This document shows, piece by piece, positions 1 to 25,840 of a DNA stretch of 27,269 nt. Numbering within the stretch: position 1 is the first letter of the stretch; every line of letters starts with the position of its first letter. Source of the DNA: a virus. Both the position numbers and the translations under genes were made by a program. Location: positions 1 through 27,269 of IMG/VR virus record IMGVR_UViG_3300037963_000897, one strand, 5' to 3'. The notes under the pieces are model-generated. The model was given only the letters and a program-made list of their open reading frames with translations. It was not told the origin of the DNA and ran no database searches.

Positions 1-153
1 AGCGAAACGAATGTAAATGCATCTAATGATTTAGTAATTCCTAAGAACACATTAACCTCAATGATAGTTCCAAGAGGGTTAGGCAATACAATTTATTTTA
101 ATTATAACTCAACCTCAACAACAACTGGAGCAGTTAGGATAGTAGAATGTTAA
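1..153 (+). CDS. C-terminal end of a structural protein (partial)
   Basis: The window opens inside a reading frame that runs to a TAA at 151-153, giving the last 50 residues of a protein that starts upstream. The segment is rich in Asn, Thr, Ser and Val, ends in VRIVEC, and looks like beta-structure with no recognisable motif. Its stop overlaps the start of the large fibre gene (ATG at 147), so the two are probably translationally coupled. By position and composition it is likely a virion protein, perhaps a fibre or decoration component. The family cannot be named from 50 residues. Confidence 0.6.
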   Translation, partial: SETNVNASNDLVIPKNTLTSMIVPRGLGNTIYFNYNSTSTTTGAVRIVEC

Positions 154-3100
154 AAGGAATGGTAAGCAGTATATCTGCTGGGTTATCAAGCGGTGGAACA
201 GTTGAAGGTGATATAACAATCACAGAAGATTTAGTTGTTCAGGGCGATTTAAAAGTAGAAGGTGGAGGCTCGTTCGCTTTTGATGAAATAATCGAAGGCA
301 CTCAAGTAATAGAGAAAACAGATACTGAAGCGTTTCTAGTAAGAAAAGCATCAGATGGTGGAGATATTTTTGTTGTAGACACGACAAATGGTCAAGTAAA
401 AGTCAATGTTGCCGATACAAATGGAAGAGGTTTGTTAGTTGGTAGTAATGCGAGTGTAGTATGGGATAATCCTGAATTAAAATTTAATGTAGGTAGTGGT
501 CAAAAACATCGCTTTGATGTTAATGGTAGTACAAAATTACTTATTGATGCTAGTACAATTAGTGGTTCTGCTAATTTTACTACAACTGGATGGGCAAAGG
601 CATCATATTTTACTAACTCAACTATTAATAACAATACAGTAATTAGAGGTAACAATACTGGTGTAGATATAGATATACAAGATTCAAGTGGTAGTTCGAT
701 TGCCTTTTTTGAGGCATCAAATAAGAGGCTGGGGCTTGGAACTACATCTCCTAGTAGTCATTTAGATTTGGTTCATAGTGATACTACTACTCCATCAATA
801 AATTTAACTCGAACTGTTATTGGGAATACTTCTTATACAAATAGAGCAGTTCTTTTTGATATAAATAAAACTAGCACAATGGACTCAGGTGCAACACTTA
901 ATTATGATGCTATGCATATTGACTTTGATGATTCAGGTGCAGATAACGCTGCATCTACTGTTAATTTAACAGGATTAAAAGTTGATGTTAATTCAGACGA
1001 TGCCACAGGAACTACAAAAAATGTAGGATTAAATGTTTCTGTTGGTGGTGCAGATACTAATTATGCAGCTTTATTTGATGGAGGATATGTTGGTATTGGT
1101 GGTGACCCTACTACTACTTTAGATGTAAATGATAATGGCGTTCAGTTAGTTGGTAACCTTAATTATACTATATTAGCTAGGCATAGTAGTATGTCAAGAG
1201 GAGTAGTTTTAGGACACGATGGTGGGGCTGCCGCTGGTTTTATATCAGCTTATGGGGCTTCAAATGATTTAATTTTTGCCACTCATAATGGAACTGCCTA
1301 TGGTGAGCGTATGAGATTAGACCACGATGGTCGGCTTGGTATCGGAACAACCTCGCCTAGTGCAAATTTACACATTAAGGATGCATCTTCTTATACTCAA
1401 CTTAAAATAGAATCAGGTAGTGTTGATCAGCAAACTTATCTTACAATGGAAGCAGATAGACCAGCTGAAAATGATATAATAGCAAATATTCAATTTACAT
1501 CTGCTGGTAGTCTTGCAGGTGATATTAAATATTTTAGAGGAAGTTCAGACGCTAAAGGTTCTTTCAAATTTGGAACTGGCTCTAGTGGAGGAACAAGATT
1601 CGTACTTGATGACGACTCTCGCATTAGTCTATCTAATAATGATAGTGGTACAAGTAATACAGTATTTGGGAAAAGCATAGGAGATATAGATGCTGGTTCA
1701 AATTACAATGTTTTTATAGGAGAAGAAGTTGCTAGTGATAATACATTGTCCGATGCTACTAACAATGTCGTAATTGGGTATCAAGCTGGTGAAGATTTAA
1801 CAACTGCTGATAATTGTGTATTTATTGGATACCAAGCAGGTCAACGGCATAGTCAAAGTAGTGGATGCACAGCAGTCGGTTATAGGGCTTTCTATAGTAC
1901 TGGAGGTCTTGATAATTGGGGTAATACATTTTTTGGTTTTGGAGCAGCATCTGGTAATTGGACAACATCAGCATCTAATGGGAATGTAGGTGTTGGATAT
2001 CAAGTATTAAATGGTGCAATGAATGATGCAGATTACAATGTTGCAGTCGGGTATCACGCTGGTCATAGTATGACACAAGGAGATTACAACTCTCTACTGG
2101 GTTGGAAAGCTGGAGTAAGTCTAACTTCAGGGGGAAATAATGTAGCTATTGGGAATGGTGCATTATTATCAAACAGTACTGGATTTCAAAATGTTGCTGT
2201 TGGTGGTGATGCTTTATCTCATACAACTAGTGATAGTAATACTGCCGTTGGGGAAAAAGCAGGTAATCGAAATACAAGTGGAACATTCAATACTGCTGTT
2301 GGTAGAGCAACATTTTTTTATAATCAAACTGGCACTGGTAATACTGCAATAGGATACCAAGCACAACATGGTGTAAGTGATAATTCACATTCTAATAATA
2401 CATCTCTTGGTTATAGGTCAATGTTTGGGGTTACTACTGGAGGTGAAAATGTTGCAGTAGGAGTTAATAGTCTTTTAGATATAACAACTGGTAATTACAA
2501 TTCTATGGTGGGATTAGGCGCAGGTGAAAATAGCACAGATGGAAGTTATAATACTGCTGTCGGATATTACGCAATGCGTGGAGATGCCTCTAGTGGATTA
2601 ACTGGAGGTGGAATAAATGTAGCATTGGGTTATAAAGCATTGTATGCAATAACTACGGCTAGTAATTGTATTGCTATTGGTGGTAATGCCTTAGAGGATT
2701 TAACTACTGGAGACTCAAATATAGCTATTGGTAGAAATGCATTAAGTACGGCTGCTAGTGGAGAAAATCACAATATTGCAATAGGTCGTGATTCCATGCT
2801 TGATTCTAACAATAGTAATAACGATTATAATGTTGCTATTGGCGGAAACACTTTAAAAGGCGGAACATATACTGTTGCTTCAAATGTAGCTATTGGTTAT
2901 GGAGTGATGAGCGATGTTAATGGAACTAATACAGGAGGTACTTACAATACAGCCATAGGCTATAATACTATGAATGGCACTTGGACAACAGCCTCATCTA
3001 ACTATAATACTGCTGTTGGCTCACAATCTATGCAAGGTGCTATGAATGGTGCTACGGATAATACTGCATTAGGTTATGACTCTTTAAAAGCTTTAACAGA

Positions 3101-4631
3101 AGGCGATAAAAACACAGCTATTGGTAAAGGAAGTTTAGATAGTTTAACGACTGGCTCTCAAAATACTGCATTAGGAAGAACATCATTACCAGCTCTAACA
3201 ACTGGTGGTAATAATGTTGGGCTTGGAATGGATGCAGGATTACTAACAACTGAAGGTAATCACAATATTTTTATTGGAACAGAATCAGGAGCAAATAACA
3301 CGACTGGTGATGAGTTAATATGTATTGGATATCGTGCTGGTTATGCTATAAATCACGCTAGTAATGCAGATGGAACAATCTCAATCGGTTATGAAGCAAA
3401 TAAGGCATTAACCTCGGGAGCAAATCAAATTTCGATAGGATACCAAGCAGGAAAAGCTTTAACTACCGCTGGAAATTCAACTTTTATAGGATACCAAGCA
3501 GGTTTAACACATACTGGAGCAAACAATGTTGCGATAGGAGACAGAGCTTTTTATAATACAGATGCAGATGCTAATTCTTTAGCCTCTACTAAGAATGTCG
3601 CAATAGGCAATTTAGCAATGGGTGGAGCAATAAATAATACAGTAACTGGAGCAGTCGCTATTGGTTATTATGCTTTAGGTACTGCTACTTGTGGAACATC
3701 TGCAAGTTATGGAGTTTATATTGGTCATCATGCTAATAAAAATAATGGTGGTGGACAAAATATAGCTATTGGTGGAAATTCATTAGAGGATGCTGATGGA
3801 ACAGAGACTGGAAATGTTGCTATTGGTGTTTCTTGTATGGATAATGTAAACAATGATGGTTCTGATTTTAATACAGTTATAGGAAATTATGCTGTTAGAG
3901 GTGGAACTGGAGTTTATACAGAAAATACTGCAGTAGGATATGAAGTTCACAAAGGTATAGGCAATCAGGATGTTTCAAGAGAGGTAGCGATTGGAGATGG
4001 AGCAGGAGGAGGAACTATTGCTGGAAGTTGTATTGGGAATGTTGCTATTGGATTTAGTGCATTAAACGCAAATAATAGGGATGGTAATTATAATGTTGCC
4101 ATTGGGCAGTTTGCAGGAAATAGCATAACAACTGGGGGCAATAATATCTGTATTGGTGTTGATGCCGATCCATCTGCCGCTGATGCAACTAATCAAATAG
4201 TTATAGGTTCATCAACAACTGGATTAGGCGATAATTATGCAGTTATTGGAAATGCTAATGTAACAAGACTATATGTTGCTAGTGATGGAGCTGGTGTTTT
4301 ATACGCCGATGGAACAATTCAGAGTTCAGATAAAAGATTAAAAGAAAATATTGAAGATACCGATTTAGGATTGGACTTTATAAATAAGCTAAGACCAGTT
4401 AAATATAATTACATCAAAGATAAACATGATGGAAAAACAAAATATGGTATTATCGCTCAAGAAGTACAAGAAGTATTAAAAGAAAGCAATAATGAAGATT
4501 TTGCTGGTATTAAAGATAGTGATGAATATTTAGGAGCTGACTATGTACAATTTGTTGCACCATTAATTAAAGCAGTTCAAGAGCTATCTGCTGAAGTAAA
4601 ATTGCTCAAACAACAATTAAAGGACAAATAA
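147..4631 (+). CDS. Large tail/receptor fibre with YadA-like head repeats and S74 intramolecular chaperone
   Basis: A 1494-residue host-attachment fibre. Residues about 15-45 form a bactofilin-like beta repeat (GTVEGDITI, LVVQGDLKV). Around 193-200 and 400-410 are the GxGTTSP motifs common in phage fibres. From about 500 to 1355 there is a long array of short repeats built on N-x-A-(I/V)-G-Y-x-A, the left-handed trimeric roll seen in YadA-type adhesin heads, which predicts a long trimeric stalk. The last 100 residues are a Peptidase_S74 domain with the motif SDKRLKENI: Ser1394-Asp1395 is the predicted self-cleavage bond and Lys1399 the assisting lysine. In the family this domain folds the trimer and then cuts itself off. 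A C-terminal coiled coil follows (LIKAVQELSAEVKLLKQQL). The binding target is unknown. Confidence 0.88.
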   Translation: MLKGMVSSISAGLSSGGTVEGDITITEDLVVQGDLKVEGGGSFAFDEIIEGTQVIEKTDTEAFLVRKASDGGDIFVVDTTNGQVKVNVADTNGRGLLVGSNASVVWDNPELKFNVGSGQKHRFDVNGSTKLLIDASTISGSANFTTTGWAKASYFTNSTINNNTVIRGNNTGVDIDIQDSSGSSIAFFEASNKRLGLGTTSPSSHLDLVHSDTTTPSINLTRTVIGNTSYTNRAVLFDINKTSTMDSGATLNYDAMHIDFDDSGADNAASTVNLTGLKVDVNSDDATGTTKNVGLNVSVGGADTNYAALFDGGYVGIGGDPTTTLDVNDNGVQLVGNLNYTILARHSSMSRGVVLGHDGGAAAGFISAYGASNDLIFATHNGTAYGERMRLDHDGRLGIGTTSPSANLHIKDASSYTQLKIESGSVDQQTYLTMEADRPAENDIIANIQFTSAGSLAGDIKYFRGSSDAKGSFKFGTGSSGGTRFVLDDDSRISLSNNDSGTSNTVFGKSIGDIDAGSNYNVFIGEEVASDNTLSDATNNVVIGYQAGEDLTTADNCVFIGYQAGQRHSQSSGCTAVGYRAFYSTGGLDNWGNTFFGFGAASGNWTTSASNGNVGVGYQVLNGAMNDADYNVAVGYHAGHSMTQGDYNSLLGWKAGVSLTSGGNNVAIGNGALLSNSTGFQNVAVGGDALSHTTSDSNTAVGEKAGNRNTSGTFNTAVGRATFFYNQTGTGNTAIGYQAQHGVSDNSHSNNTSLGYRSMFGVTTGGENVAVGVNSLLDITTGNYNSMVGLGAGENSTDGSYNTAVGYYAMRGDASSGLTGGGINVALGYKALYAITTASNCIAIGGNALEDLTTGDSNIAIGRNALSTAASGENHNIAIGRDSMLDSNNSNNDYNVAIGGNTLKGGTYTVASNVAIGYGVMSDVNGTNTGGTYNTAIGYNTMNGTWTTASSNYNTAVGSQSMQGAMNGATDNTALGYDSLKALTEGDKNTAIGKGSLDSLTTGSQNTALGRTSLPALTTGGNNVGLGMDAGLLTTEGNHNIFIGTESGANNTTGDELICIGYRAGYAINHASNADGTISIGYEANKALTSGANQISIGYQAGKALTTAGNSTFIGYQAGLTHTGANNVAIGDRAFYNTDADANSLASTKNVAIGNLAMGGAINNTVTGAVAIGYYALGTATCGTSASYGVYIGHHANKNNGGGQNIAIGGNSLEDADGTETGNVAIGVSCMDNVNNDGSDFNTVIGNYAVRGGTGVYTENTAVGYEVHKGIGNQDVSREVAIGDGAGGGTIAGSCIGNVAIGFSALNANNRDGNYNVAIGQFAGNSITTGGNNICIGVDADPSAADATNQIVIGSSTTGLGDNYAVIGNANVTRLYVASDGAGVLYADGTIQSSDKRLKENIEDTDLGLDFINKLRPVKYNYIKDKHDGKTKYGIIAQEVQEVLKESNNEDFAGIKDSDEYLGADYVQFVAPLIKAVQELSAEVKLLKQQLKDK

Positions 4632-5210: not shown

Positions 5211-5480
5211 ATGCTTGTTCGTAAATGTGCAGAAGGTAAAAAAGTGTATATCTTTAAACCAAAAACAAAAGAAAACTCAACATATAAAATTAATGATGAA
5301 ACTATTTCTTTTGATGCACAGAACAAGTCATATATTGTAGTAAGTGATGGGGCAGTAATTAAAAGAACTAATTCTTTTGTTACTGCTCAATCCTCATTTC
5401 TTGAAAAAGCTGGGGATAAAATAAAAGAATTAAAAATTGGAAAACACATTTTGAAAGATGGAATAGCAACAGAGGTTTAA
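5211..5480 (+). CDS. Hypothetical protein, 89 aa
   Basis: Not recognised. It starts 2 bases after the preceding stop and its TAA overlaps the next ATG (TAATG). The protein is basic and looks mainly beta-structured (alternating hydrophobics such as KVYIFKP and SYIVVSDGAVI) with a short C-terminal helix. There is no transmembrane segment and only one Cys, so a metal site is unlikely. It sits between the fibre accessory genes and the lysis region; a small virion protein is possible. Confidence 0.55.
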   Translation: MLVRKCAEGKKVYIFKPKTKENSTYKINDETISFDAQNKSYIVVSDGAVIKRTNSFVTAQSSFLEKAGDKIKELKIGKHILKDGIATEV

Positions 5481-5803
5481 TGAGTGAAAAACCTAAGACA
5501 GCAAGGAGTTATCGAGCAACTGTCGTTGGTGACAATACTGTCGTTAGCATTAATCTTAAATGGGCTGGGCAGGTGCTTATACTTGTCGCTGGACTTGTTT
5601 ATTCGTACTTACAAATTGAAAACAGAATTGGAGAACTTGAGCGAAGAGTGGAACTTGCTGATACCGAAATTGAAGAGCTTGTCAATAAACATATAGCAGA
5701 AGAAGAAGCAAAGATTTCAAAAATGGAACAAGAAATAGAATGGTACTCAAAAGAATTAAATTTAAACCCTCTAAGTTGGGGAAGGAAAAAAAGGAAAAAA
5801 TAA
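5480..5803 (+). CDS. Single-pass membrane protein with coiled coil (holin- or spanin-like candidate)
   Basis: 107 residues. A cytoplasmic-looking N-terminus is followed by one membrane segment at about residues 28-45 (WAGQVLILVAGLVYSYL), then a charged coiled coil (about 47-92, ENRIGELERRVELADTEIEE) and a very basic tail (GRKKRKK). It is the first of a series of short proteins with the same layout just upstream of the endolysin, which suggests a lysis role such as holin, antiholin or inner-membrane spanin subunit. No lipobox partner was found. The gene ends in A-rich runs that could allow slippage into the overlapping -1 frame. Confidence 0.6.
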   Translation: MSEKPKTARSYRATVVGDNTVVSINLKWAGQVLILVAGLVYSYLQIENRIGELERRVELADTEIEELVNKHIAEEEAKISKMEQEIEWYSKELNLNPLSWGRKKRKK

Positions 5804-5898
5804 AACTATTTAAATGGTGGCAGGAAGATATGAAAATAGAATTAGATCACATTGAACATAACTACTTTATTAACAAAGAGTTACGAAGAGTTAAATAA
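5740..5898 (+). CDS. Small basic ORF overlapping the upstream gene
   Basis: A 52-codon frame starting at ATG 5740 inside the previous gene, in its -1 frame. It encodes a Lys-rich peptide that continues past the upstream stop (LFKWWQEDMKIELDHIEHN). The TAA at 5896-5898 overlaps the next ATG, the same coupling used by neighbouring real genes, and the frame fills an otherwise empty stretch. An internal ATG at 5830 would give a 22-residue product. No family is recognised. It is either a small gene or a C-terminal extension of the upstream membrane protein made by frameshifting. Confidence 0.35.
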   Translation: MVLKRIKFKPSKLGKEKKEKIKLFKWWQEDMKIELDHIEHNYFINKELRRVK

Positions 5899-5999
5899 TG
5901 CCAGTTTTTCCTTTTAGATGTATAGGTTGTAGTAAACCAATTAAAACATTTAGTGGTTATTGCGAAAAATGTAAAAAAGAAAAGGATGAAGAAGAATGA
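5898..5999 (+). CDS. 33-aa zinc-ribbon miniprotein
   Basis: A very short gene joined to its neighbours by a TAATG overlap upstream and an ATGA overlap downstream. It encodes two CxxC knuckles (Cys8-x2-Cys11 and Cys22-x2-Cys25) followed by an acidic Lys/Glu tail. Four cysteines in 33 residues at zinc-ribbon spacing strongly suggest a folded metal-binding peptide, not chance. Its function is unknown. A similar 35-residue CxxC/CxxC peptide occurs at 25821. Confidence 0.6.
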   Translation: MPVFPFRCIGCSKPIKTFSGYCEKCKKEKDEEE

Positions 6000-6289
6000 C
6001 TGAACTAGCAGATTTATATTTGCAACTAGGCAGCGCAGGATTTATTGCACTTTTATTTGGGTTTATGATATATAACCTTATACAAAGTCAAAAAGAACAA
6101 TCAGACGACTTAGAAGAAATAAAACAAAGTATTAGAAAAATGGAATCAGTTTTAGATAATAATCAAAATATATCAGTTAAGTTAATTGATAGAATTAATT
6201 CTAGCGATAAAGACAGAGAAATTTTTTGGCGCGAATTATCTGACGATTTAGCATTTATTAAAGGTAGAATTAATGGAGGTTCTAAATGA
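5996..6289 (+). CDS. Small membrane protein, BhlA/UviB holin-like candidate
   Basis: 97 residues. One hydrophobic helix at about residues 10-29 (LGSAGFIALLFGFMIYNLI) is followed by a long charged coiled coil (about 30-90). This N-in short-helix plus amphipathic-tail plan matches the BhlA/UviB-type holin-like proteins of phages and bacteriocin regions. It is second in the series of single-pass proteins leading to the endolysin. The call rests on topology and place, as no diagnostic motif exists for holins. Confidence 0.55.
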   Translation: MTELADLYLQLGSAGFIALLFGFMIYNLIQSQKEQSDDLEEIKQSIRKMESVLDNNQNISVKLIDRINSSDKDREIFWRELSDDLAFIKGRINGGSK

Positions 6290-6567
6290 ACCCTGATAAA
6301 CCAATATCAGATAATAGCAGCTTAAGTATATCGCTGCCTATGATTATACAAGCAGTAACATTTGTTGTAATGTTAGTATGGGGTTATAGTCAATTAAATG
6401 CTCGTATATCTTTTTTAGAATATCAAGTAGCTATGAATGAAGAACATATTATAGATATAGAAGAAGACGCTGAAGCAAATCAAGACGCAGAAATACCTGC
6501 GGACATAAAACAAAATCAAAGAATTGAATATCTTGAGCGCGAAGTAGAAAGATTGCGAGATAAATGA
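6286..6567 (+). CDS. Small membrane protein with coiled coil
   Basis: 93 residues. A Ser-rich N-terminus is followed by one membrane helix (about 17-37, PMIIQAVTFVVMLVWGYSQL) and an acidic helical tail ending in a short coiled coil (IEYLEREVERLRDK). The layout is much like the protein at 5480 (membrane segment, then an N-R-I-x-x-L-E-like turn into the coil), so the two may be diverged paralogues. ATGA overlaps link it to both neighbours. It is probably part of the lysis or membrane module; a specific role cannot be assigned. Confidence 0.58.
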   Translation: MNPDKPISDNSSLSISLPMIIQAVTFVVMLVWGYSQLNARISFLEYQVAMNEEHIIDIEEDAEANQDAEIPADIKQNQRIEYLEREVERLRDK

Positions 6568-6800
6568 AATTAAATACAAACATATCAGTTGAAAACATAA
6601 TAACTATAATGACTCTTATTTGCTCCATAGTGTTAGCTTTTGGTTTTATGCAATACGATGTTAAGGCTATACAAAAAGAGCTCGATTTTAAAGCAAATAA
6701 GCGCGATATAATAGCTGATAGGCAATTAATAGCATATAAACTAGATGTTATAATGCAAGATATTGAAGAAATTAAACTAACTTTAAAAGAAAGGAAATAA
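6564..6800 (+). CDS. Small membrane protein with helical tail
   Basis: 78 residues. One membrane segment at about residues 10-30 (NIITIMTLICSIVLAFGFM) precedes a charged helix (KAIQKELDFKANKRDIIAD). It is fourth in the run of one-helix proteins before the endolysin and overlaps its upstream neighbour by four bases. Size and topology fit a holin, antiholin or other small inner-membrane protein. The family was not recognised. Confidence 0.55.
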   Translation: MKLNTNISVENIITIMTLICSIVLAFGFMQYDVKAIQKELDFKANKRDIIADRQLIAYKLDVIMQDIEEIKLTLKERK

Positions 6801-6801
6801 A

Positions 6802-7035
6802 ATGGAGTGGATGAATTGGTCTAATTTCGCTTACTTAATGATAATAATATTAGGAGCTGTAGGTACTATGGTTGCTACAAAATATAGAATTATTATTAAA
6901 GAAATGAAAGAGGTTGCAGCTAAATATCACGAAGCTGCAAAAGATGGTAAAATTACAAAAGAAGAACAACAGGCTATTGCAAAAGAGTGTATGGACGTGT
7001 TAATGGCCACAGTAAAATTGGTTTGGAAGTTTTAA
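6802..7035 (+). CDS. Putative holin
   Basis: 77 residues, directly abutting the endolysin gene. A membrane helix spans about residues 8-27 (FAYLMIIILGAVGTMVATKY); a second amphipathic, weakly hydrophobic helix lies at the C-terminus (MDVLMATVKLVWKF) after a stretch resembling an EF-hand-like loop (DGKITKEEQQAI). Its position immediately before the endolysin makes it the best holin candidate of the five small membrane proteins here, but the assignment is by context. Confidence 0.55.
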   Translation: MEWMNWSNFAYLMIIILGAVGTMVATKYRIIIKEMKEVAAKYHEAAKDGKITKEEQQAIAKECMDVLMATVKLVWKF

Positions 7036-7470
7036 GTGCCTAAACTTGGTAAAAGAAGCATGAAAAGGTTGGAGGGTGTTGATCCTAGACTTGTATCTGT
7101 ATTACAAAAAGTGGTTAAGTATTACGATATTACAGTCATAGAGGGTTTGCGCACACAAGAAAGACAAAATGAATTACTTAAGGTTGGCAAATCAAAAACT
7201 AAGTTTGGAAAACATGTTCTTGGTAAGGCTGTGGACATTGCACCATATAATTTCCAAACCAAAAAAATAGACTGGGAAAATAGAGATGACTGGCATTATC
7301 TAGGAGGGTTTGTTTTAGGTGTTGCTGCTATGATGGGTGTAAATCTTAGATGGGGAGGTGACTGGTCATCACCTAGTCTTGATAAAAAAGTTATGATGGG
7401 TAAAGAAGTTAGAACTACATCTGATAATTCTTTTGACGATTTATTGCATTATGAGATTGTAGATGATTAA
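7036..7470 (+). CDS. Endolysin, peptidase M15 (L-alanyl-D-glutamate / D,D-peptidase type)
   Basis: 144 residues starting at GTG 7036, with GGAAG eight bases upstream and no gap from the putative holin. The M15 zinc site is intact: His60 and Asp67 in the GKHVLGKAVDI motif, and Asp135/His138 in FDDLLHYEI (catalytic acid and third ligand). The conserved GLRTQERQNEL helix (about 37-47) and the WGGDW strand are present. Family members cut peptide bonds in peptidoglycan stem peptides, and many phages use them for host lysis. There is no signal peptide, so export through a holin is expected. A free-standing tail-associated peptidase is less likely given the gene context. Confidence 0.82.
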   Translation: MPKLGKRSMKRLEGVDPRLVSVLQKVVKYYDITVIEGLRTQERQNELLKVGKSKTKFGKHVLGKAVDIAPYNFQTKKIDWENRDDWHYLGGFVLGVAAMMGVNLRWGGDWSSPSLDKKVMMGKEVRTTSDNSFDDLLHYEIVDD

Positions 7471-9971: not shown

Positions 9972-10165
9972 TGAAAGTAAAAGCAAGACTAAATAAATTT
10001 CACAGAGTAAATCCAAATGGAGTTGCTTGTGATAAATCCTCACTAAAGAAACTTCGGAGCGGTGAGGTCGTAGAATTATCCGAAGATGTAGCCAATGAAC
10101 TTTTGAATATGGGGTTTGTTGAGCCAAGTAAACAAAAAACAAATAAAAAAAAGGAGAGTAAATAA
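9971..10165 (+). CDS. Small basic protein upstream of the tail tube gene
   Basis: 64 residues from ATG 9971, which overlaps the previous stop (TAATG) and has AGAGG nearby; a longer frame from TTG 9947 is less likely. The sequence has a short beta/helix core (GEVVELSEDVANELLNMGFV) and a Lys-rich tail. The core resembles the small domain in which a residue is placed 'at or above' a threshold in phage tail accessory proteins, but I cannot name the family. It is probably a minor structural or assembly protein. Confidence 0.5.
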   Translation: MKVKARLNKFHRVNPNGVACDKSSLKKLRSGEVVELSEDVANELLNMGFVEPSKQKTNKKKESK

Positions 10166-11241
10166 TGGCAGATACTCGCGTACTCCCTGTAAGTAGTGTT
10201 AAATATGGCTTAAAGGCAGAAACATCTTTCGGGGTAGGATTAGATTCAAGTGGTAACGACGGCACTGCGTATTACACGCAACCAGTTGTTCAAGCAGAAA
10301 AACCAACATTTAATATTTTGAGAGAATCAAGATTATTAAGTGGCAGAGGAAGTATAAAAAATGCTTCTGATACAATAACAAATACAAGGGGTGGTACAGT
10401 TACAATGCCTTTTGATATGTTGGCGACACCAAGAACATTAGCACAGCATTTACTTTTAGTTGGGCAAGAAAGTGGATATTCTAGTGGTGTTCACGAAACA
10501 GAATTTGACGGCTCAAGCAATTCAAATTCTATTGGTGGCTCAATATCAAGTGGTATGCCACATAGTGCTAATCTAGCTTATTATCCAGCAGCTGGAGAAG
10601 GCATTAAGGTTTGTGGTGTAGTTTGCTCAGACCTAAGTATTACTGGAGATGTTGGTGCAAACAATGGTTTAGTTTCTATGAGTGGAAATTATTTTAGTGG
10701 TTTTTCAAACCCTCTTAGCACATCATCTGTTTTAGAGCAAACATTTGATGGCACTTGGGCTGCTGCTGAAACAACTCACTTTAATGTAATGGATGCAGAC
10801 ACAAGAACATTAGATGTTGAAGGAAACGCAACTCAGACATTTATTATGAAATCATTTTCATTTAATATTGCAAATGGTGTTAATAGGGTTGGGTTTGATA
10901 CAAATGGTAATGCAGAACTATATGTTTTTCCTGAATATGCAATAACTGGAAATCTAGTAATTAAATACGATGACGAATTTGATTATGGAGCTGGAAACAA
11001 TGTGATACAGGATTTTCTTGATGGAAATACTATGAGTTTAGCAATTAAGATTGGTGACGGCACTATAAGCTCGGAAGGTGAATTGAATATTTTAGCAGAA
11101 TTACAATACACAGGAGATCCAAGCCAAGACCTTAGTGAGAACGGTGTTTTTCATTCATTAGAATTTGAATGTGTACAAAATGCGTCTACTGAAGCATTGA
11201 AAATATCAACATACAAAAATGAAGCACCAGATGCTTTTTAA
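10165..11241 (+). CDS. Putative major tail tube protein
   Basis: 358 residues, GGAGAG ribosome binding site, ATG overlapping the upstream TAA. It is rich in beta strands, Gly, Ser, Thr and Asn, with no enzymatic motifs. An opening segment (SVKYGLKAETSFGVG) precedes a Gly-rich loop (LLSGRGSIKNASDT) typical of siphophage tube subunits, and the C-terminus has a second beta half. Position is the main support: directly upstream of the G/GT chaperones and the tape measure, the canonical site of the tube gene. Abundant expression would be expected. Confidence 0.7.
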   Translation: MADTRVLPVSSVKYGLKAETSFGVGLDSSGNDGTAYYTQPVVQAEKPTFNILRESRLLSGRGSIKNASDTITNTRGGTVTMPFDMLATPRTLAQHLLLVGQESGYSSGVHETEFDGSSNSNSIGGSISSGMPHSANLAYYPAAGEGIKVCGVVCSDLSITGDVGANNGLVSMSGNYFSGFSNPLSTSSVLEQTFDGTWAAAETTHFNVMDADTRTLDVEGNATQTFIMKSFSFNIANGVNRVGFDTNGNAELYVFPEYAITGNLVIKYDDEFDYGAGNNVIQDFLDGNTMSLAIKIGDGTISSEGELNILAELQYTGDPSQDLSENGVFHSLEFECVQNASTEALKISTYKNEAPDAF

Positions 11242-11265
11242 TTAGTAACTAAAGAGGAGTAAAAA

Positions 11266-11541
11266 ATGATAGTTGATACAAAACATGGTCAATTTGAATG
11301 TAAAGACATAACTAGAAAACAACGCAGAACTTTGTATAAGAAAGTAAAGCAAATTAGTACAGAGAATGATGTTTCTAAATTACATGACTTAGCAGATGAG
11401 TTCGCTATTCTTGCTTTTGGGGATGAAAAAAAAGCAGAAGAACATTTAGGAAAATTATCAGCAGTTGAAGAAGATGAAGTGCTAAATGAAATTATTGGTT
11501 CTTATATGGGGTTTGACTTGGGAAACGATATTGGCGATTGA
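11266..11541 (+). CDS. Tail assembly chaperone, gpG-like
   Basis: 91 residues with a strong ribosome binding site (GAGGAG). It is an all-helical, highly charged protein (KQRRTLYKKVKQI, KLHDLADEFAILAFGDEKKA). It lies between the tube and tape measure genes, as lambda gpG does. In that system the chaperone coats the tape measure while the tube assembles around it. Its last codons contain a -1 slippery site (GGGAAAC), so a fraction of ribosomes should continue into the next frame and make a longer fusion, with most stopping at TGA 11539-11541. Confidence 0.75.
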   Translation: MIVDTKHGQFECKDITRKQRRTLYKKVKQISTENDVSKLHDLADEFAILAFGDEKKAEEHLGKLSAVEEDEVLNEIIGSYMGFDLGNDIGD

Positions 11542-11616
11542 GAACTGCACTTTGGTTTTCCTCTTTTGGAATCCCAAGAACTGGTCTACTCCTCCCATAT
11601 ACCGCTCAGTCGCCAA
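11520..11616 (+). promoter_or_regulatory. Programmed -1 frameshift element (slippery site plus stem)
   Basis: Bases 11520-11526 are GGGAAAC, in the correct phase for a -1 slip (TT[G GGA AAC]). The -1 frame is blocked by a TGA at 11514-11516 and is open from 11517 onward, so the slip must occur within about 25 bases, and this heptamer is in that window. Four bases later a 12-bp stem begins: 11531-11542 (TTGGCGATTGAG) pairs with 11605-11616 (CTCAGTCGCCAA), fully complementary with a single G-U pair. The zero-frame stop lies inside the 5' arm. Lambda G/GT uses GGGAAAG at the equivalent place. Confidence 0.85.
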
Positions 11617-11933
11617 CCCTTTTCAAGCGTATAGAGTTTAAAAACGAAAAGGATATTGAAAATGAGATTGATAGGATACTATCTGAACCAAACATTAAAA
11701 AACATGGAATTGGTCAAAGTCTTTATTTTCAATTACCTTTTTTTTGTAATCCTGATGAACAGATTCCGAATTGGTGTTGGCAAATGATAGATGATTATTA
11801 TGTTGTTACTGAATACAATATTCCATTATCTAATACATTAGATGATGCAAATGCTTGGGTTTTGGATTGTTTTAATATCATAAAAGATGAAGTAAATAAA
11901 ATAAATATTTATAAGGCAAAAAATGGCAATTAA
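11538..11933 (+). CDS. T-domain of the tail chaperone GT fusion (made by -1 frameshift)
   Basis: This -1 frame has no credible start of its own (the first possible codon is TTG 11538, with no ribosome binding site). It is most likely translated as a fusion: residues 1-87 of the upstream protein, then from base 11526 onward RYWRLRTALWF and about 135 residues in all, for a predicted 222-residue GT protein. The T part has a conserved-looking aromatic, proline-rich start, a helix (NEKDIENEIDRILSE) and a C-terminal helix. In lambda the T domain recruits tube subunits to the tape measure-chaperone complex. It overlaps the tape measure start by 11 bases. Confidence 0.8.
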   Translation: MRTALWFSSFGIPRTGLLLPYTAQSPTLFKRIEFKNEKDIENEIDRILSEPNIKKHGIGQSLYFQLPFFCNPDEQIPNWCWQMIDDYYVVTEYNIPLSNTLDDANAWVLDCFNIIKDEVNKINIYKAKNGN

Positions 11934-13824
11934 AAATCTATTAATAAAATTAGGCGTCGCTGGAGACAAAAAAGCAAAAAACAAAATAAAAGGTGTTGAA
12001 AGTGGTTTAACCAATTTAGGTAAATCTGCTTTGAAGGCTGGAGCTGCCTTTTTTGGTGCAAGGGCTTTAATCAATGGAATGAAACAAAGCGTTGAATTAG
12101 CAGGGATTCAAGAACAAGCAGAAAAAAGATTAGAGGTTGCATTAGGTAAACGCTCACAGGCATTATTAGATCAAGCATCTGCATTACAACAACAAACAAC
12201 TTTTGGTGATGAATCAATTTTAGGAGTTCAAGCATCTATTAGTGCCTTTGTAAAATCAGAAGAGCAAATTAAAAAAGCAACAACTGCTACGCTAGATATG
12301 GCAGTTGCTATGGGAATGGATTTAAAAGCATCGGGAGATTTAATTGCTAAAACTCTAGGTTCTTCAACTAACGCTTTATCTAGGTATGGAATTGAAGTAA
12401 AAGGAGCGGTTGGAAGCCAAGAAAGACTAGAATCATTAACAAATAATATTGCAAAATTATTTGGTGGACAAGCAACTGCTCAAGCACAAACCTTTGCAGG
12501 TTCAATCGAGCAAATGAAAAATGCTATTGGTGATACTGGCGAAGTATTAGGCGTTATGCTACAACCTGCAGTAGAATCATCTGCAAAAGCATTAAAAACA
12601 TTTGCAGAAAATTTTGGTGGAACATTAACAAAATTATCAAAAATAGATTTAGCAAAAACTGGTAAAAACTTTTTAAAAAGCACAGATGCATTAATGACTG
12701 CTATAAAAAAATTAATTGCTGTTACATTTGATTTTTTACCCGATTATTTTAAATTTGCACTTAGTAAGGTATTGCCAGTAGCAAAAACAATATTTTTATC
12801 ATTTGTTGATGGGGTAAAACAAGTTGCATTGGTTGTTTTTGAACCTCTTGTAATAGCTATAAATCATGTAGGACAAAGAATAAAACAAGGATTTACAGTT
12901 ATTATTAATGGTTTAATTGGGGGATTAAATACATTAGTAGATAAGGTAAATTTAGTAGGTACTAAATTAGGTTTTGATGAAATACCTAGAATTAATTTAT
13001 TAGATAATATACAAGTAGACCCATTATTAGATAAACTAAAAGAAGCTAAAATATCAAAGTTTTTAGTGCCTGAAGGTGGAGACATAGATACAACTCAAGA
13101 GTTTTTGGATGCTAGTGCTGAAATTATGACCACTTATTTTGAGCAAATAAAAGCAATGAAAGAAGAGGAAAAAGCTAAAGACTTAAAAGATACTATTGAT
13201 AATGAAAATGAAAAAGATAAGGTAAGAAAAAACTCATTAATGAAATTTAGCGAAGATGAAAAAAAGAAAATTAATCTATTGCATCAAAGATTGAAACTAG
13301 CAATAGGCTTTGCAGATGCTCAACATGCTCATAGAAAAAAATTAAGAGATAATGAAATGAACGCAGAAATACAAGCAATATTACAATCTCGCATGACTGA
13401 AGAACAAAAAGAATCTGCTATTGCAAACATTAAAGAAAAGTTTAGACAAAAAGATATTGCCGATGCTAGAAGAATGAAATCAGTAAGAAAAGCAGAAGCA
13501 ATTATGAATACCGCTGTCGCAGTTACAAAGGTGATGCCTGATTTAATTTCGATGGCATTGGTAGCCGCTAAGGGAGCAGTTGAAATTGCAACAATAGACG
13601 CTCAACAGTTCGCAAAGGGGGGAATCGTACAAGGCGCTGGGAATCAGGATACAGTTCCAGCAATGCTTACACCAGGAGAATTAATTTTAAATCAAGCACA
13701 ACAAAATAATTTAGCTCAAGGAATGGGGGTAACTGTAAACATTGGTGGCAATATAATTGGAAACGAAGAGTTCGTTAGAGATACTTTAATTCCTGAAATA
13801 GAAAAGGCTCAAGTTCTAGCATGA
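11923..13824 (+). CDS. Tape measure protein
   Basis: 633 residues. It is mostly helical, with an Ala/Lys-rich N-terminal half (KKAKNKIKGVESGLTNLG), a phage-tail-measure-like segment (about 75-200, with GMDLKASGDLIAKTLGSS and a TFAGSIEQMKNAIGD turn), hydrophobic helices around 275-330 (IFLSFVDGVKQVALVVF, VIINGLIGGLNTLV), a charged coiled coil (about 395-500), and the common C-terminal signature FAKGGIVQGAGNQDTVPAML followed by TPGELILN. Tape measures set tail length at roughly 1.5 angstroms per residue, so a tail of about 90-100 nm is predicted. It follows the frameshifted chaperone as expected. Confidence 0.85.
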   Translation: MAIKNLLIKLGVAGDKKAKNKIKGVESGLTNLGKSALKAGAAFFGARALINGMKQSVELAGIQEQAEKRLEVALGKRSQALLDQASALQQQTTFGDESILGVQASISAFVKSEEQIKKATTATLDMAVAMGMDLKASGDLIAKTLGSSTNALSRYGIEVKGAVGSQERLESLTNNIAKLFGGQATAQAQTFAGSIEQMKNAIGDTGEVLGVMLQPAVESSAKALKTFAENFGGTLTKLSKIDLAKTGKNFLKSTDALMTAIKKLIAVTFDFLPDYFKFALSKVLPVAKTIFLSFVDGVKQVALVVFEPLVIAINHVGQRIKQGFTVIINGLIGGLNTLVDKVNLVGTKLGFDEIPRINLLDNIQVDPLLDKLKEAKISKFLVPEGGDIDTTQEFLDASAEIMTTYFEQIKAMKEEEKAKDLKDTIDNENEKDKVRKNSLMKFSEDEKKKINLLHQRLKLAIGFADAQHAHRKKLRDNEMNAEIQAILQSRMTEEQKESAIANIKEKFRQKDIADARRMKSVRKAEAIMNTAVAVTKVMPDLISMALVAAKGAVEIATIDAQQFAKGGIVQGAGNQDTVPAMLTPGELILNQAQQNNLAQGMGVTVNIGGNIIGNEEFVRDTLIPEIEKAQVLA

Positions 13825-23305: not shown

Positions 23306-24340
23306 ATGAATATAAAAGGACAATTTAATAATAATAGAGGTTTTGGTGTTGAGGTTGAATTTATTAGACCTAATAATGTATCAAAGCAAGATATATGTGA
23401 TGCTCTTACAGTTAATTGTAGAGTAGAAGGGTACAATCATATTACTAGACCACATTGGAAGATAGTAAGTGACTCTTCTGTTAGTGCTAACGGCCGCAGA
23501 GGTTATGTTGGTGATAATGAAATTGTTTCGCCTATATTATATGGTGAAAACGGTTTTGTGCAATTAAAATCTATGCTTGATACTCTTAAACAATTAGAGT
23601 GTGAAGTTAATTATACTTGCGGTATACATGTTCATCACGATGTTACTAATATGATGGTTCAAGGTAAAGAAAAAAGCCAAAAATTCTTAGCTAACCTTGT
23701 AAAATTTGTTGCTAAGTATGAGCATTTAATTTACAAGCTAGTTTCACCTTCAAGATTAGATAATAGACAATACAGTACACCTGTAAGAAGAGAGTATTTT
23801 AGTTACGATCTTGATGTTACTAAAAATGACGTTAAAAAAATGATTAATAAAGTAAAAAATGATTGTAACAGAAAATATAACAGAGGCGGCAACGTTATTG
23901 ATAGAGATCAACCAAGTCCAAATGTTCAACACAATAGAGCTTGTGGGCTTAATTTTCGCAACGTTTGGACAAGAGGTTCTGTTGAGTTTAGGTATCACAA
24001 TGGTTCATTAAATTTTGAAAAAATAGTTTCATGGATTGTATTTACTCAAGCTATTGTTAATGCTGTTGAAGATACTAAAAGCGTTTCTATGTCTTTTGTA
24101 CCAAATAATATAAAAGGTTTAGCAAGTTTAAGAGGTGCTATAGGTTTTATAAGAAGAAGCGGTATGGAGCCAACTGAAAGAACAGTGTTTTCAAGAGATG
24201 AATATGTTAACTTGTCTAATAAATATGTACAGAAAAGATACAAAGAGTTAAGTAGAAGAGAAGCTGACTATGAAGTAAATATGCAATATAGATATGTAAA
24301 AGACGGTTTAACAACTAATCAACAAGGAGGTTTAGCATAA
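23306..24340 (+). CDS. Amidoligase (COOH-NH2 ligase, glutamine-synthetase-like fold)
   Basis: 344 residues, ribosome binding site AAAGGA. Motifs of the putative amidoligase family (PF12224): RGFGVEVEF (Glu16, Glu18), WKIVSDSSV, NEIVSP (Glu72), CGIHVHHD (His108, His110), and TRGSVEFRYHNGSL (Glu227-x-Arg229), followed by the conserved helix EKIVSWIVFTQAIVNA. Members are predicted to use ATP to join an amine to a carboxyl group, forming amide or isopeptide bonds on peptides, cell-wall or other metabolites. It is first in a promoter-led unit; one base separates it from a glutamine amidotransferase gene. Its substrate is unknown. Confidence 0.82.
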   Translation: MNIKGQFNNNRGFGVEVEFIRPNNVSKQDICDALTVNCRVEGYNHITRPHWKIVSDSSVSANGRRGYVGDNEIVSPILYGENGFVQLKSMLDTLKQLECEVNYTCGIHVHHDVTNMMVQGKEKSQKFLANLVKFVAKYEHLIYKLVSPSRLDNRQYSTPVRREYFSYDLDVTKNDVKKMINKVKNDCNRKYNRGGNVIDRDQPSPNVQHNRACGLNFRNVWTRGSVEFRYHNGSLNFEKIVSWIVFTQAIVNAVEDTKSVSMSFVPNNIKGLASLRGAIGFIRRSGMEPTERTVFSRDEYVNLSNKYVQKRYKELSRREADYEVNMQYRYVKDGLTTNQQGGLA

Positions 24341-24341
24341 T

Positions 24342-25232
24342 ATGTGTGGGCTAGCAGGAGTTATTTTAAAACAAAAAAACAGAGATACGGAGGCGCTTAA
24401 AAGCGTCTCTGTTTCTTTTTCTAAAATGTTAACAGCAGCTAATATAAGAGGAGGCCATGCAACTGGTTTTGCATTAATTGATAAATATGGCGATTATGTA
24501 ATATGTAAAAAACCTAAAGAAGCTTATGATTTTTTTGATGATGAAGAAGTTAAAGATAATATTGATTTAGTATACGATGGTATTACAATAATAATGGGTC
24601 ATACAAGATACGCAACATTAGGTTCACCCTCTATTAATAAAAATAATCACCCGATTAGAACTGGTCAAACTATAGGTACTCACAATGGCTCTATATCTAA
24701 TCATAAAGAGCTTTTTTATAAATATGATATGCAAAGGTATGCACAAGTAGATAGTGAAGCTATATTTAGACTATATGAAACTTCTAATAATATTAGTGAT
24801 TTTATTACTAATAGATTACCAAAAGTAAAAGGCAGAGTTGCTATTGTTTGGGCCGATTTAGAGCTGCCAGATTATGTATATATGGTAAAAGCTAATAACC
24901 CAATTCAAATGGTTTATATTCCGGAATATGAGTGTTATGCTTATGGTAGTACTGATTCTATTATTAACGCTGGTTTTTGGGGTAATTATAAACATATTAC
25001 AATAAAACCTAATACAATGGTTCGAATTAATACTAAAACGCTTGAAATTGAAACACAGGAAGTTAAAATTGCAAAACCTAAAGTTAATAAATGGTCGTTT
25101 TATGATTCAAAGATTGGAGCATATAAAAACAAAAAAGAGACTGTACCAAGGTTTGTTCCTAGATTTTCATATAGTGACCAATTAAAAATGTTCGCAGCAA
25201 GTGATGGTTCAAAAATAAGAAAGGTAAAATAA
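24342..25232 (+). CDS. Class II glutamine amidotransferase
   Basis: 296 residues, with ideal AAGGAGG at 24324-24330. All Ntn-type glutaminase features are present: Cys2 nucleophile exposed after Met removal (MCGLAGV), RGGHATG (36-42), GHTRYATLG (Arg89), NNHP (101-104), THNGSISN (Asn115, Gly116 oxyanion) and VDSE (Asp137). It releases ammonia from glutamine. It lacks the SIS or PRTase domain of GlmS/PurF; about 70 residues at the C-terminus are basic and unassigned. The ammonia is likely used with the amidoligase encoded next to it. A strong terminator-like hairpin lies within codons 16-26. Confidence 0.87.
   Translation: MCGLAGVILKQKNRDTEALKSVSVSFSKMLTAANIRGGHATGFALIDKYGDYVICKKPKEAYDFFDDEEVKDNIDLVYDGITIIMGHTRYATLGSPSINKNNHPIRTGQTIGTHNGSISNHKELFYKYDMQRYAQVDSEAIFRLYETSNNISDFITNRLPKVKGRVAIVWADLELPDYVYMVKANNPIQMVYIPEYECYAYGSTDSIINAGFWGNYKHITIKPNTMVRINTKTLEIETQEVKIAKPKVNKWSFYDSKIGAYKNKKETVPRFVPRFSYSDQLKMFAASDGSKIRKVK
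24387..24420 (+). terminator. Intragenic terminator-like hairpin in the amidotransferase gene
   Basis: ACGGAGGCGCTT (24387-24398) pairs with AAGCGTCTCTGT (24401-24412): 12 pairs with two G-U, in practice a 10-bp stem with a TTAA or slightly larger loop, followed by TTCTTTTT (24413-24420). An alternative pairing, AAACAGAGA (24377-24385) with TCTCTGTTT (24406-24414), competes for the 3' arm. The codons used (ACG, GCG, AGC, GTC) are unusually GC-rich for this genome, which suggests that the structure is kept. It could attenuate transcription of the downstream genes. Confidence 0.45.
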
Positions 25233-25840
25233 TGTACGATTTATTTGTATATGGCACATTAAAAAAAGGTGGTTCAAATCACGAGTTTATAAAAGACTCT
25301 AAATTTCTAAGACACGAAATATTAAATCATCATGCCATTTATAAACCTAATGGTTTTAATTTTCCAATAATGTTACCTAATAAAGATAGCAAAGTATATG
25401 GAGAAGTATATAGAGTTGATAGTGATACGTTAGATAGATTAGATATGCTAGAACAAGAGGGTACATTTTATAATCGCTTAGATAATAGTATATTAGGCTA
25501 TCAATATTACTTATGGAAATATCAAGATGGTTTAGTTTTTAGCGAAGAAGACAAAATAAAAAATGGTTATTGGGTAACAAAAGGGGAGGTTGATTTAAAT
25601 TTAATAATTGACAATAGGGAATACACAGATAAAGCAGATAAACTAGTGTTTCACATGAGGTTTTTTGATGGGCAGCGAGCGCCAACAAACAAAATCTATA
25701 TGGATTTAGTAAGAAAAAGAAGTCATTTAGATTTAAACATTGATAGTGAAGAAATATTTTTAAGAGATTGCATTATAAAAGGAGTAGTTAGTGAATTTAA
25801 AGAACCAGAACACTCGTTTAATGTCTTGCAGCATCTGTGA
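25232..25840 (+). CDS. Gamma-glutamylcyclotransferase-like protein (AIG2/GGCT fold)
   Basis: 202 residues, TAATG overlap with the amidotransferase. The N-terminal domain has the family signature LFVYGTLKKGG (residues 4-14), VYGEVYRVD (55-63) and the LDMLEQEGTFYNR block (70-82) with the catalytic Glu (Glu74 or Glu76). The family releases 5-oxoproline from gamma-glutamyl amines, as BtrG does to remove a protecting group in butirosin synthesis. Residues about 125-202 are an extra domain of unknown type. In this cassette it probably trims a gamma-glutamyl product of the amidoligase (inference). Confidence 0.8.
   Translation: MYDLFVYGTLKKGGSNHEFIKDSKFLRHEILNHHAIYKPNGFNFPIMLPNKDSKVYGEVYRVDSDTLDRLDMLEQEGTFYNRLDNSILGYQYYLWKYQDGLVFSEEDKIKNGYWVTKGEVDLNLIIDNREYTDKADKLVFHMRFFDGQRAPTNKIYMDLVRKRSHLDLNIDSEEIFLRDCIIKGVVSEFKEPEHSFNVLQHL

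Follow-up and report, generated by a model that had tools for sequence, protein, structure and literature searches.

A lambda G/GT-type -1 frameshift signal in a family of uncultured viruses, with a loop segment complementary to the ribosome-binding site of its own gene

Comparison with relatives indicates that the putative tail assembly chaperone gene of virus record IMGVR_UViG_3300037963_000897 (IMG/VR) almost certainly undergoes a -1 programmed frameshift of the lambda G/GT type. We analyzed positions 1 to 27,269 of that record, and this whole stretch of 27,269 nt is referred to here as the window. The best overall explanation of the data, with a probability of about 0.9, is that the frameshift is combined with a second layer, a pairing between the leader of the chaperone gene and the loop of the frameshift stem-loop. 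The frameshift itself is of a known kind. What is new here is the probable tie between its loop and the ribosome-binding site, together with the exchange of whole heptamers over a fixed stem.

The chaperone gene and its neighbors contain the following features.
10165..11241, + strand: tail tube protein gene, upstream of the chaperone gene (Pfam Phage_tube_2, PF18906; E = 1.2e-6, 28.8 bits against a cut-off of 27)
11266..11541, + strand: zero-frame ORF, a putative G-like tail assembly chaperone of 91 aa (ATG at 11266, stop TGA at 11539-11541)
11520..11526, + strand: slippery heptamer G_GGA_AAC, in phase
11526..11933, + strand: -1 frame continuation, a T-like domain of 135 aa (junction LGN followed by RYWRLR)
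11533..11542, + strand: 5' arm of the conserved stem, GGCGATTGAG, which holds the zero-frame stop UGA (11539-11541)
11605..11614, + strand: 3' arm of the conserved stem, CUCAGUCGCC, with a Ser codon that is TCG in 55/58 sequences and TCC in 3/58
11923..13824, + strand: tape measure protein gene (PHROG 27166, tail length tape measure protein; E = 3.3e-9)

Reading frames, slippery heptamer, and stem

Two overlapping ORFs in a -1 relation sit between the tail tube and tape measure genes, and the tape measure gene overlaps the end of the -1 ORF. A first-pass annotation, made from the letters of the window, had compared this position to that of lambda G/GT, and the Phage_tube_2 match above its cut-off upstream and the PHROG 27166 match downstream bear this out. 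The -1 frame is closed by a TGA at 11514-11516 and is open from 11517 to 11933. Therefore, it opens only at 11517, as the annotation had it. All of the coordinates given in the annotation proved correct, and they reproduce its predicted fusion of 222 residues (87 + 135 aa). The zero-frame ORF encodes 88 to 96 aa in all of the protein-selected relatives and 91 aa in most of them.

The G protein had no Pfam match and only a weak PHROG match. An AlphaFold2 model of the G domain (26 relatives) had a pLDDT of 84, and a Foldseek structure search with it found no significant PDB match. A second look gave modest fits to YqbN (3klu, Z 3.9) and a PICI protein (5ir0, Z 6.7). In the BFVD, the model matched proteins named tail assembly chaperone with probabilities of 0.89 and 0.72 and E values above 0.1. 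For the putative identification of G as a chaperone, position and architecture weigh more than these fold fits. The model of the T domain (42 relatives) was of good quality (pLDDT 91) and had no PDB match. BFVD entry A0A516L3G7 is a UniProt viral protein that is 81% identical to the G protein of the window, and it is probably from an uncultured-virus record.

Relatives came from IMG/VR and were chosen by protein only. The fusion protein retrieved 6, an alignment of those retrieved 28, and a wider alignment retrieved 70 loci, 63 of them distinct. Elsewhere, GenBank phages contained no near match to the whole 27,269-base window, no relatives of the chaperone or tube protein, and only short weak matches to the tape measure. 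The annotated phage families gave no sequence match above cut-off, scans of the GTDB genome collection found zero relatives, and an Rfam scan of the window found no family at gathering scores.

The heptamer at 11520-11526 reads G_GGA_AAC in the right phase, exactly where the annotation had placed it. In this genome an in-phase heptamer occurs at approximately 1% of codons, which translates into a chance of approximately 7% within the ORF overlap. However, in 62/63 distinct relatives this codon position is occupied by a canonical X_XXY_YYZ heptamer: GGGAAAC in 45, CCCTTTA in 8, GGGAAAA in 3, GGGAAAT in 3, CCCAAAT in 2, and AAAAAAG in 1. A tree inferred with the heptamer codons left out requires at least nine changes of heptamer, and CCCTTTA alone needs two changes even when only strongly supported branches are counted. 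Each exchange replaces six or all seven bases and keeps the slippery pattern, while the encoded amino acids differ (GN, PL, GK, KK, and PN). Whole-heptamer swaps with altered amino acids are hard to explain by protein constraint. The annotation had also set GGGAAAC beside the GGGAAAG of lambda. In this family, GGGAAAC is one of several interchangeable heptamers. We found no account of whole-heptamer swapping over a fixed stem in the open-licence literature, and it is new here. In effect, evolution has mutagenized these slippery sites in a setting other than E. coli. The second codon counts against frameshifting. A_AAC is "mammalian-like" and, compared with the A_AAG of lambda, performs poorly in E. 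coli, in which A_AAG is the shifty one (PMC5009743). E. coli may not be the host.

The annotation described a 12-bp stem that begins four bases past the heptamer and holds the zero-frame stop. This stem is present (11531-11542 with 11605-11616, one G-U pair, and a 62-nt loop), but its conserved core is 10 bp (11533-11542 with 11605-11614) and starts six bases after the heptamer. The outer two pairs are not conserved, and we rejected them as part of the signal. RNA folding, a check that the annotation had proposed, favored the element: its 86 nt fold at -28 kcal/mol with a z of -4.8, and 0/200 dinucleotide shuffles were as good. When codons were resampled synonymously, all 10 core pairs were kept in 33/2000 trials and the fold was equally stable in 57/2000. 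By itself, the window sequence is modest evidence, suggestive only, and it is conservation that settles the frameshift reading.

The stem is found in 63/63 distinct relatives, each with 9 or 10 of the 10 core pairs, and in 63/63 the zero frame ends in a UGA inside it. The loop is 62 nt long in 60/63 and 65 nt long in 3/63. Among 57 aligned sequences, the core pairs failed in six cells, all at one pair near the loop (A-C). The second proposed check, covariation, was also favorable. Pair 40/117 is C-G in 54 sequences and G-C in three (L211 to L213), where the protein changes from WRLR to WGLS, and pair 43/114 occurs as U-G, U-A, and C-G. The 3' arm is coded in the -1 frame only. Its Ser codons TCG and TCC each make up approximately 3% of Ser codons elsewhere in the ORF, and TCC occurs exactly in the three sequences with the changed partner base. 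For a stimulatory stem, a structure approximately 5 to 9 nt 3' of the heptamer is expected; here the spacer is 6 nt and the stem shows compensatory changes. In an unbiased helix scan of the region, no other helix of comparable length approached the 10-bp stem. Down to approximately 38% identity, no relative keeps both frames and lacks the stem, a case that the annotation had named as refuting, and the only heptamer departures are L212, L220, and L221.

As an independent check, IMG/VR was scanned for the stem motif alone. Matches with the family reading frame carry a heptamer six bases upstream, whereas none was present in the 52 matches that differed in loop length and had no family ORF. Most matches with a 62-nt loop and no heptamer were these sites read on the antisense strand, and the remainder were without the family ORF. 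The family comprises no fewer than 60 uncultured viruses, and in it covariation alone suffices to read a phage frameshift signal.

A loop segment complementary to the leader of gene G

Three more features concern the inside of the loop and the leader of gene G.
11254..11261, + strand: leader segment GAGGAGTA in the Shine-Dalgarno region of gene G, an 8-bp perfect complement of the loop, with covariation in the family
11550..11579, + strand: inner hairpin in the 62-nt loop (11550-11555 with 11574-11579), moderate support
11587..11594, + strand: anti-Shine-Dalgarno segment UACUCCUC in the loop, the proposed partner of leader 11254-11261

The annotation had suggested a further pairing or pseudoknot within the long loop. 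It seems to have been correct, though the form was not expected: the loop has an inner hairpin and a segment complementary to the ribosome-binding site. The inner hairpin was paired in 83.9% of cells, against at most 55.6% when its arms were slid, and 15 cells were changed on both sides. Support for it is only moderate because its Trp and Pro codons contribute to the pairing. We rejected a local pseudoknot in which AUGGG, upstream of the heptamer, would pair with CCCAU of the loop. It was paired in 87% of cells in 26 sequences, but there were zero changes on both sides, it is broken in a distant clade, and it is explained by Met-Gly and Pro-Tyr codons. No helix of at least 5 bp joining the loop to the 40 nt that follow the stem passed the unbiased scan.

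In the window, GAGGAGUA (11254-11261) can pair with UACUCCUC over 8 bp at a distance of approximately 330 nt. The longest perfect complement of the 20-nt G leader within the next 670 nt falls in the loop in 13/16, 13/19, and 6/6 sequences of three clades. Outside clade B this is 32/41, whereas in clade B it is 0/18. Pairings in relatives include AGGGGAGGUCA with UGACCUCCCCU in L172 (11 bp), GAGGAGUAAA with UUUACUCCUC in L149 (10 bp), GGGAGGUUAU with AUAACCUCCC in L213 (10 bp), and GGGGAAUCG with CGAUUCCCC in L217 (9 bp, in a different part of the loop). A covarying helix between the ribosome-binding site and the coding region is found in clades A, C, and E only and is absent from clade B.

Swapping leaders between relatives weakened the pairing overall. 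Within clades, the effect was strong in two (0/1000 and 12/1000 swaps), slight in the clade of the window (30/1000), and missing in clade B. When pairing energies were compared between sequences that share no tree branch, the own combination was better than the crossed one in 12/13 informative non-B pairs (p = 0.0017). Among all Shine-Dalgarno leaders of a contig, that of G was the best partner of the loop at 23/54 sites, with 7.1 expected. In the window, 2/16 other Shine-Dalgarno leaders pair with the loop as well as the G leader does. Also, in a nested fold of the window leader region the leader prefers other partners, so kinetics would matter. The pairing was found post hoc, once the data had been inspected. 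There were few fresh loci, most of them sisters of loci already known: L220, L221 (both sisters of L212), and L071 agree, and L120 disagrees. On this comparative evidence, the pairing is very probably real and selected in the family, and it is probably so in the window itself.

The leader-loop helix crosses the stem, so the two would form a pseudoknot spanning approximately 360 nt. We propose the following sequence of events. Most ribosomes would translate gene G and terminate at the UGA at 11539. A minority would slip back on G_GGA_AAC as they encounter the 10-bp stem six bases further on. They would produce the 222-aa G-T fusion, and by analogy with lambda this fusion would link the tape measure and the tube subunits during tail assembly. 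The loop segment would pair with the Shine-Dalgarno leader of gene G and, together with the stem, make a long-range pseudoknot. In the paired state the ribosome-binding site of gene G would be closed. Zero-frame ribosomes end at 11541, approximately 45 nt short of the loop segment, and would leave the helix paired. Only frameshifted ribosomes would cross the segment and reopen the ribosome-binding site. Initiation on G would thereby be tied to frameshifting and hence to the G:GT ratio. Our tentative suggestion, which we put at somewhat below even odds, is that the loop acts in cis as an anti-Shine-Dalgarno switch, so that frameshifting feeds back on initiation and helps to set the G:GT ratio. 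If so, a phage could hold the chaperone ratio independent of ribosome supply, with synthesis of the long product licensing the start of the short one. In lambda, the chaperone ratio needed for tail assembly is approximately 30:1 (PMC5009743).

Alternative explanations

The leader-loop pairing might be real and yet serve frameshifting, with the pseudoknot stiffening the stimulator. Frameshifting would then be a sensor of initiation, more efficient when the ribosome-binding site is free and less efficient when initiating ribosomes occupy it. The crossing of stem and helix fits this idea. There is also precedent in barley yellow dwarf virus, in which a frameshift stem-loop pairs at a distance with the 3' end and the distant pairing tunes frameshifting (PMC7618472). 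The partner there lies approximately 4 kb 3', whereas the partner proposed here is on the 5' side, within the ribosome-binding site. However, in clade B (18 sequences) the heptamer and stem are the same although the pairing is absent. Because clade B keeps the frameshift signal, the pairing appears to be dispensable for frameshifting, which favors a role in initiation, and a blocked Shine-Dalgarno sequence is the more direct consequence of the pairing. We regard a stimulatory role as doubtful and prefer the switch acting on initiation.

The complementarity might instead be a by-product of coding. The loop has to code for Leu-Pro-Tyr, every CTC-CCN looks like an anti-Shine-Dalgarno sequence, and shared ancestry inflates swap tests. 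The GGAG/CTCC core is indeed common to most sequences, one clade has no match, and the feature was noticed after inspection of the data. However, several observations are not accounted for in this way. In the window the anti-Shine-Dalgarno-like segment reads CUCCUCCC and includes the Leu codon at 11592. That codon is CTC in 31/40 relatives with Leu at the site, although CTC makes up only approximately 2% of Leu codons. The flanks outside the GGAG/CTCC core covary as well: own combinations scored 5.17 against 2.96 for swapped ones, with 0/5000 swaps as good, and all 9/9 informative tree-independent pairs favored the own combination (9 versus 0, p = 0.002). Flanking columns exchange G-C with A-U, G-C with U-A, A-U with U-A, G-C, and C-G, and C-G with A-U and U-A; the inner-flank exchanges are partly due to two alternative registers in the clade of the window. 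Sister sequences compensate, with C-G in L188 against U-A in L189 and C-G in L212, L220, and L221 against U-A in L211 and L213. Finally, L214, L215, and L217 match their leaders through another part of the loop. A by-product is therefore unlikely, and we continue to read the complementarity as a selected pairing.

It is also conceivable that there is no frameshift and that the -1 ORF is made by termination-reinitiation at the overlapping UUGA (UUG at 11538, UGA at 11539). This start/stop overlap does exist in the window, but the codon is CTG in 11/58 sequences, and no Shine-Dalgarno sequence is evident before the UUG in the window. Reinitiation would also leave the conserved, interchangeable heptamer and its exact spacing unexplained, and we consider it highly improbable. 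That a single gene was split by a sequencing or assembly error in this metagenomic virus record, or is joined by transcriptional slippage, is already refuted because the architecture is conserved (63 distinct records show the same architecture, stop, and spacing), and GGGAAAC and CCCTTTA are not long homopolymers, so that it has a negligible chance of being right.

Known systems, departures, and other genes

The -1 frameshifts of lambda G/GT and other tail assembly chaperones were reportedly described by Levin (1993) and Xu (2004, 2013, and 2014). The lambda type is widely conserved (reviewed in PMC5009743). Like lambda G/GT, the signal described here lies between the tail tube and tape measure genes and consists of a short, putative zero-frame chaperone, a -1 extension, and an X_XXY_YYZ heptamer near the end of G. 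It differs in using mostly G_GGA_AAC or C_CCU_UUA, as opposed to the G_GGA_AAG of lambda, in its invariant 10-bp stem, 62-nt loop, and zero-frame stop inside the element, and in a loop segment complementary to its own ribosome-binding site in most lineages. The g-t frameshift site of the haloarchaeal virus HCTV-1 is G_GGA_AAC (cited in PMC5009743), the same heptamer in the same kind of gene; the comparison covers these two features.

We found no description in the open-licence literature of a frameshift stem-loop paired to the ribosome-binding site of its own gene. A parallel for the proposed switch is the Min Jou helix of MS2, in which 7 bp (nt 1427-1433 with 1738-1744, approximately 310 nt apart) close a ribosome-binding site, and ribosomes on the coat gene disrupt the helix so that the replicase site opens (PMC11339067). 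Both are short distant helices over a ribosome-binding site, and opening by ribosome passage is proposed here by analogy. However, the closed site in MS2 is that of the downstream gene, whereas here it is that of the same gene, with opening proposed for frameshifted ribosomes only. A further difference from MS2 is that here the loop of a frameshift stimulator carries the segment.

Some loci depart from the family pattern. The clade of L191 to L209 with L081, L179, L200, and L201 (18 sequences) keeps heptamer and stem, and its leader-loop complementarity was either lost or never present. The sole exception to the heptamer among the 63 distinct relatives is CCCTTCT (C_CCU_UCU) in L212. It is not a read error because the same sequence occurs in its sisters L220 and L221, found later. 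The site is at 2255-2261 in L212 and at 2755-2761 in L220 and L221, and the stem and both frames are retained. Full re-pairing is possible for the P-site tRNA only, and these loci may work by P-site slippage of tRNA-Pro alone. This subclade is a natural test of one-tRNA slippage. In L233 and L234 (28% identity; positions approximately 2740-2765), the stem is absent and the zero frame ends in PPKKKH and a stop. An in-phase dnaX-type A_AAA_AAG lies just before this early stop, and the -1 frame continues as ALKVRVALW...FPYRAKSPTLKK. To judge from these frames, L233 and L234 seem to make the same fusion from a dnaX-type site.

The window also contains other genes. At 23306-25840, adjacent Amidoligase_2, class II glutamine amidotransferase (GATase_6), and gamma-glutamyl cyclotransferase (GGACT) genes form a three-gene cassette. 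The 1494-aa protein encoded at 147-4631 has numerous repeats and, at its C terminus, a Peptidase_S74 chaperone domain; it is probably a self-cleaving tail fibre or spike. Before an M15-type peptidase gene (7036-7470), a run of short ORFs at 5480-7035, each with one hydrophobic segment by eye, includes candidates for a holin or spanin.
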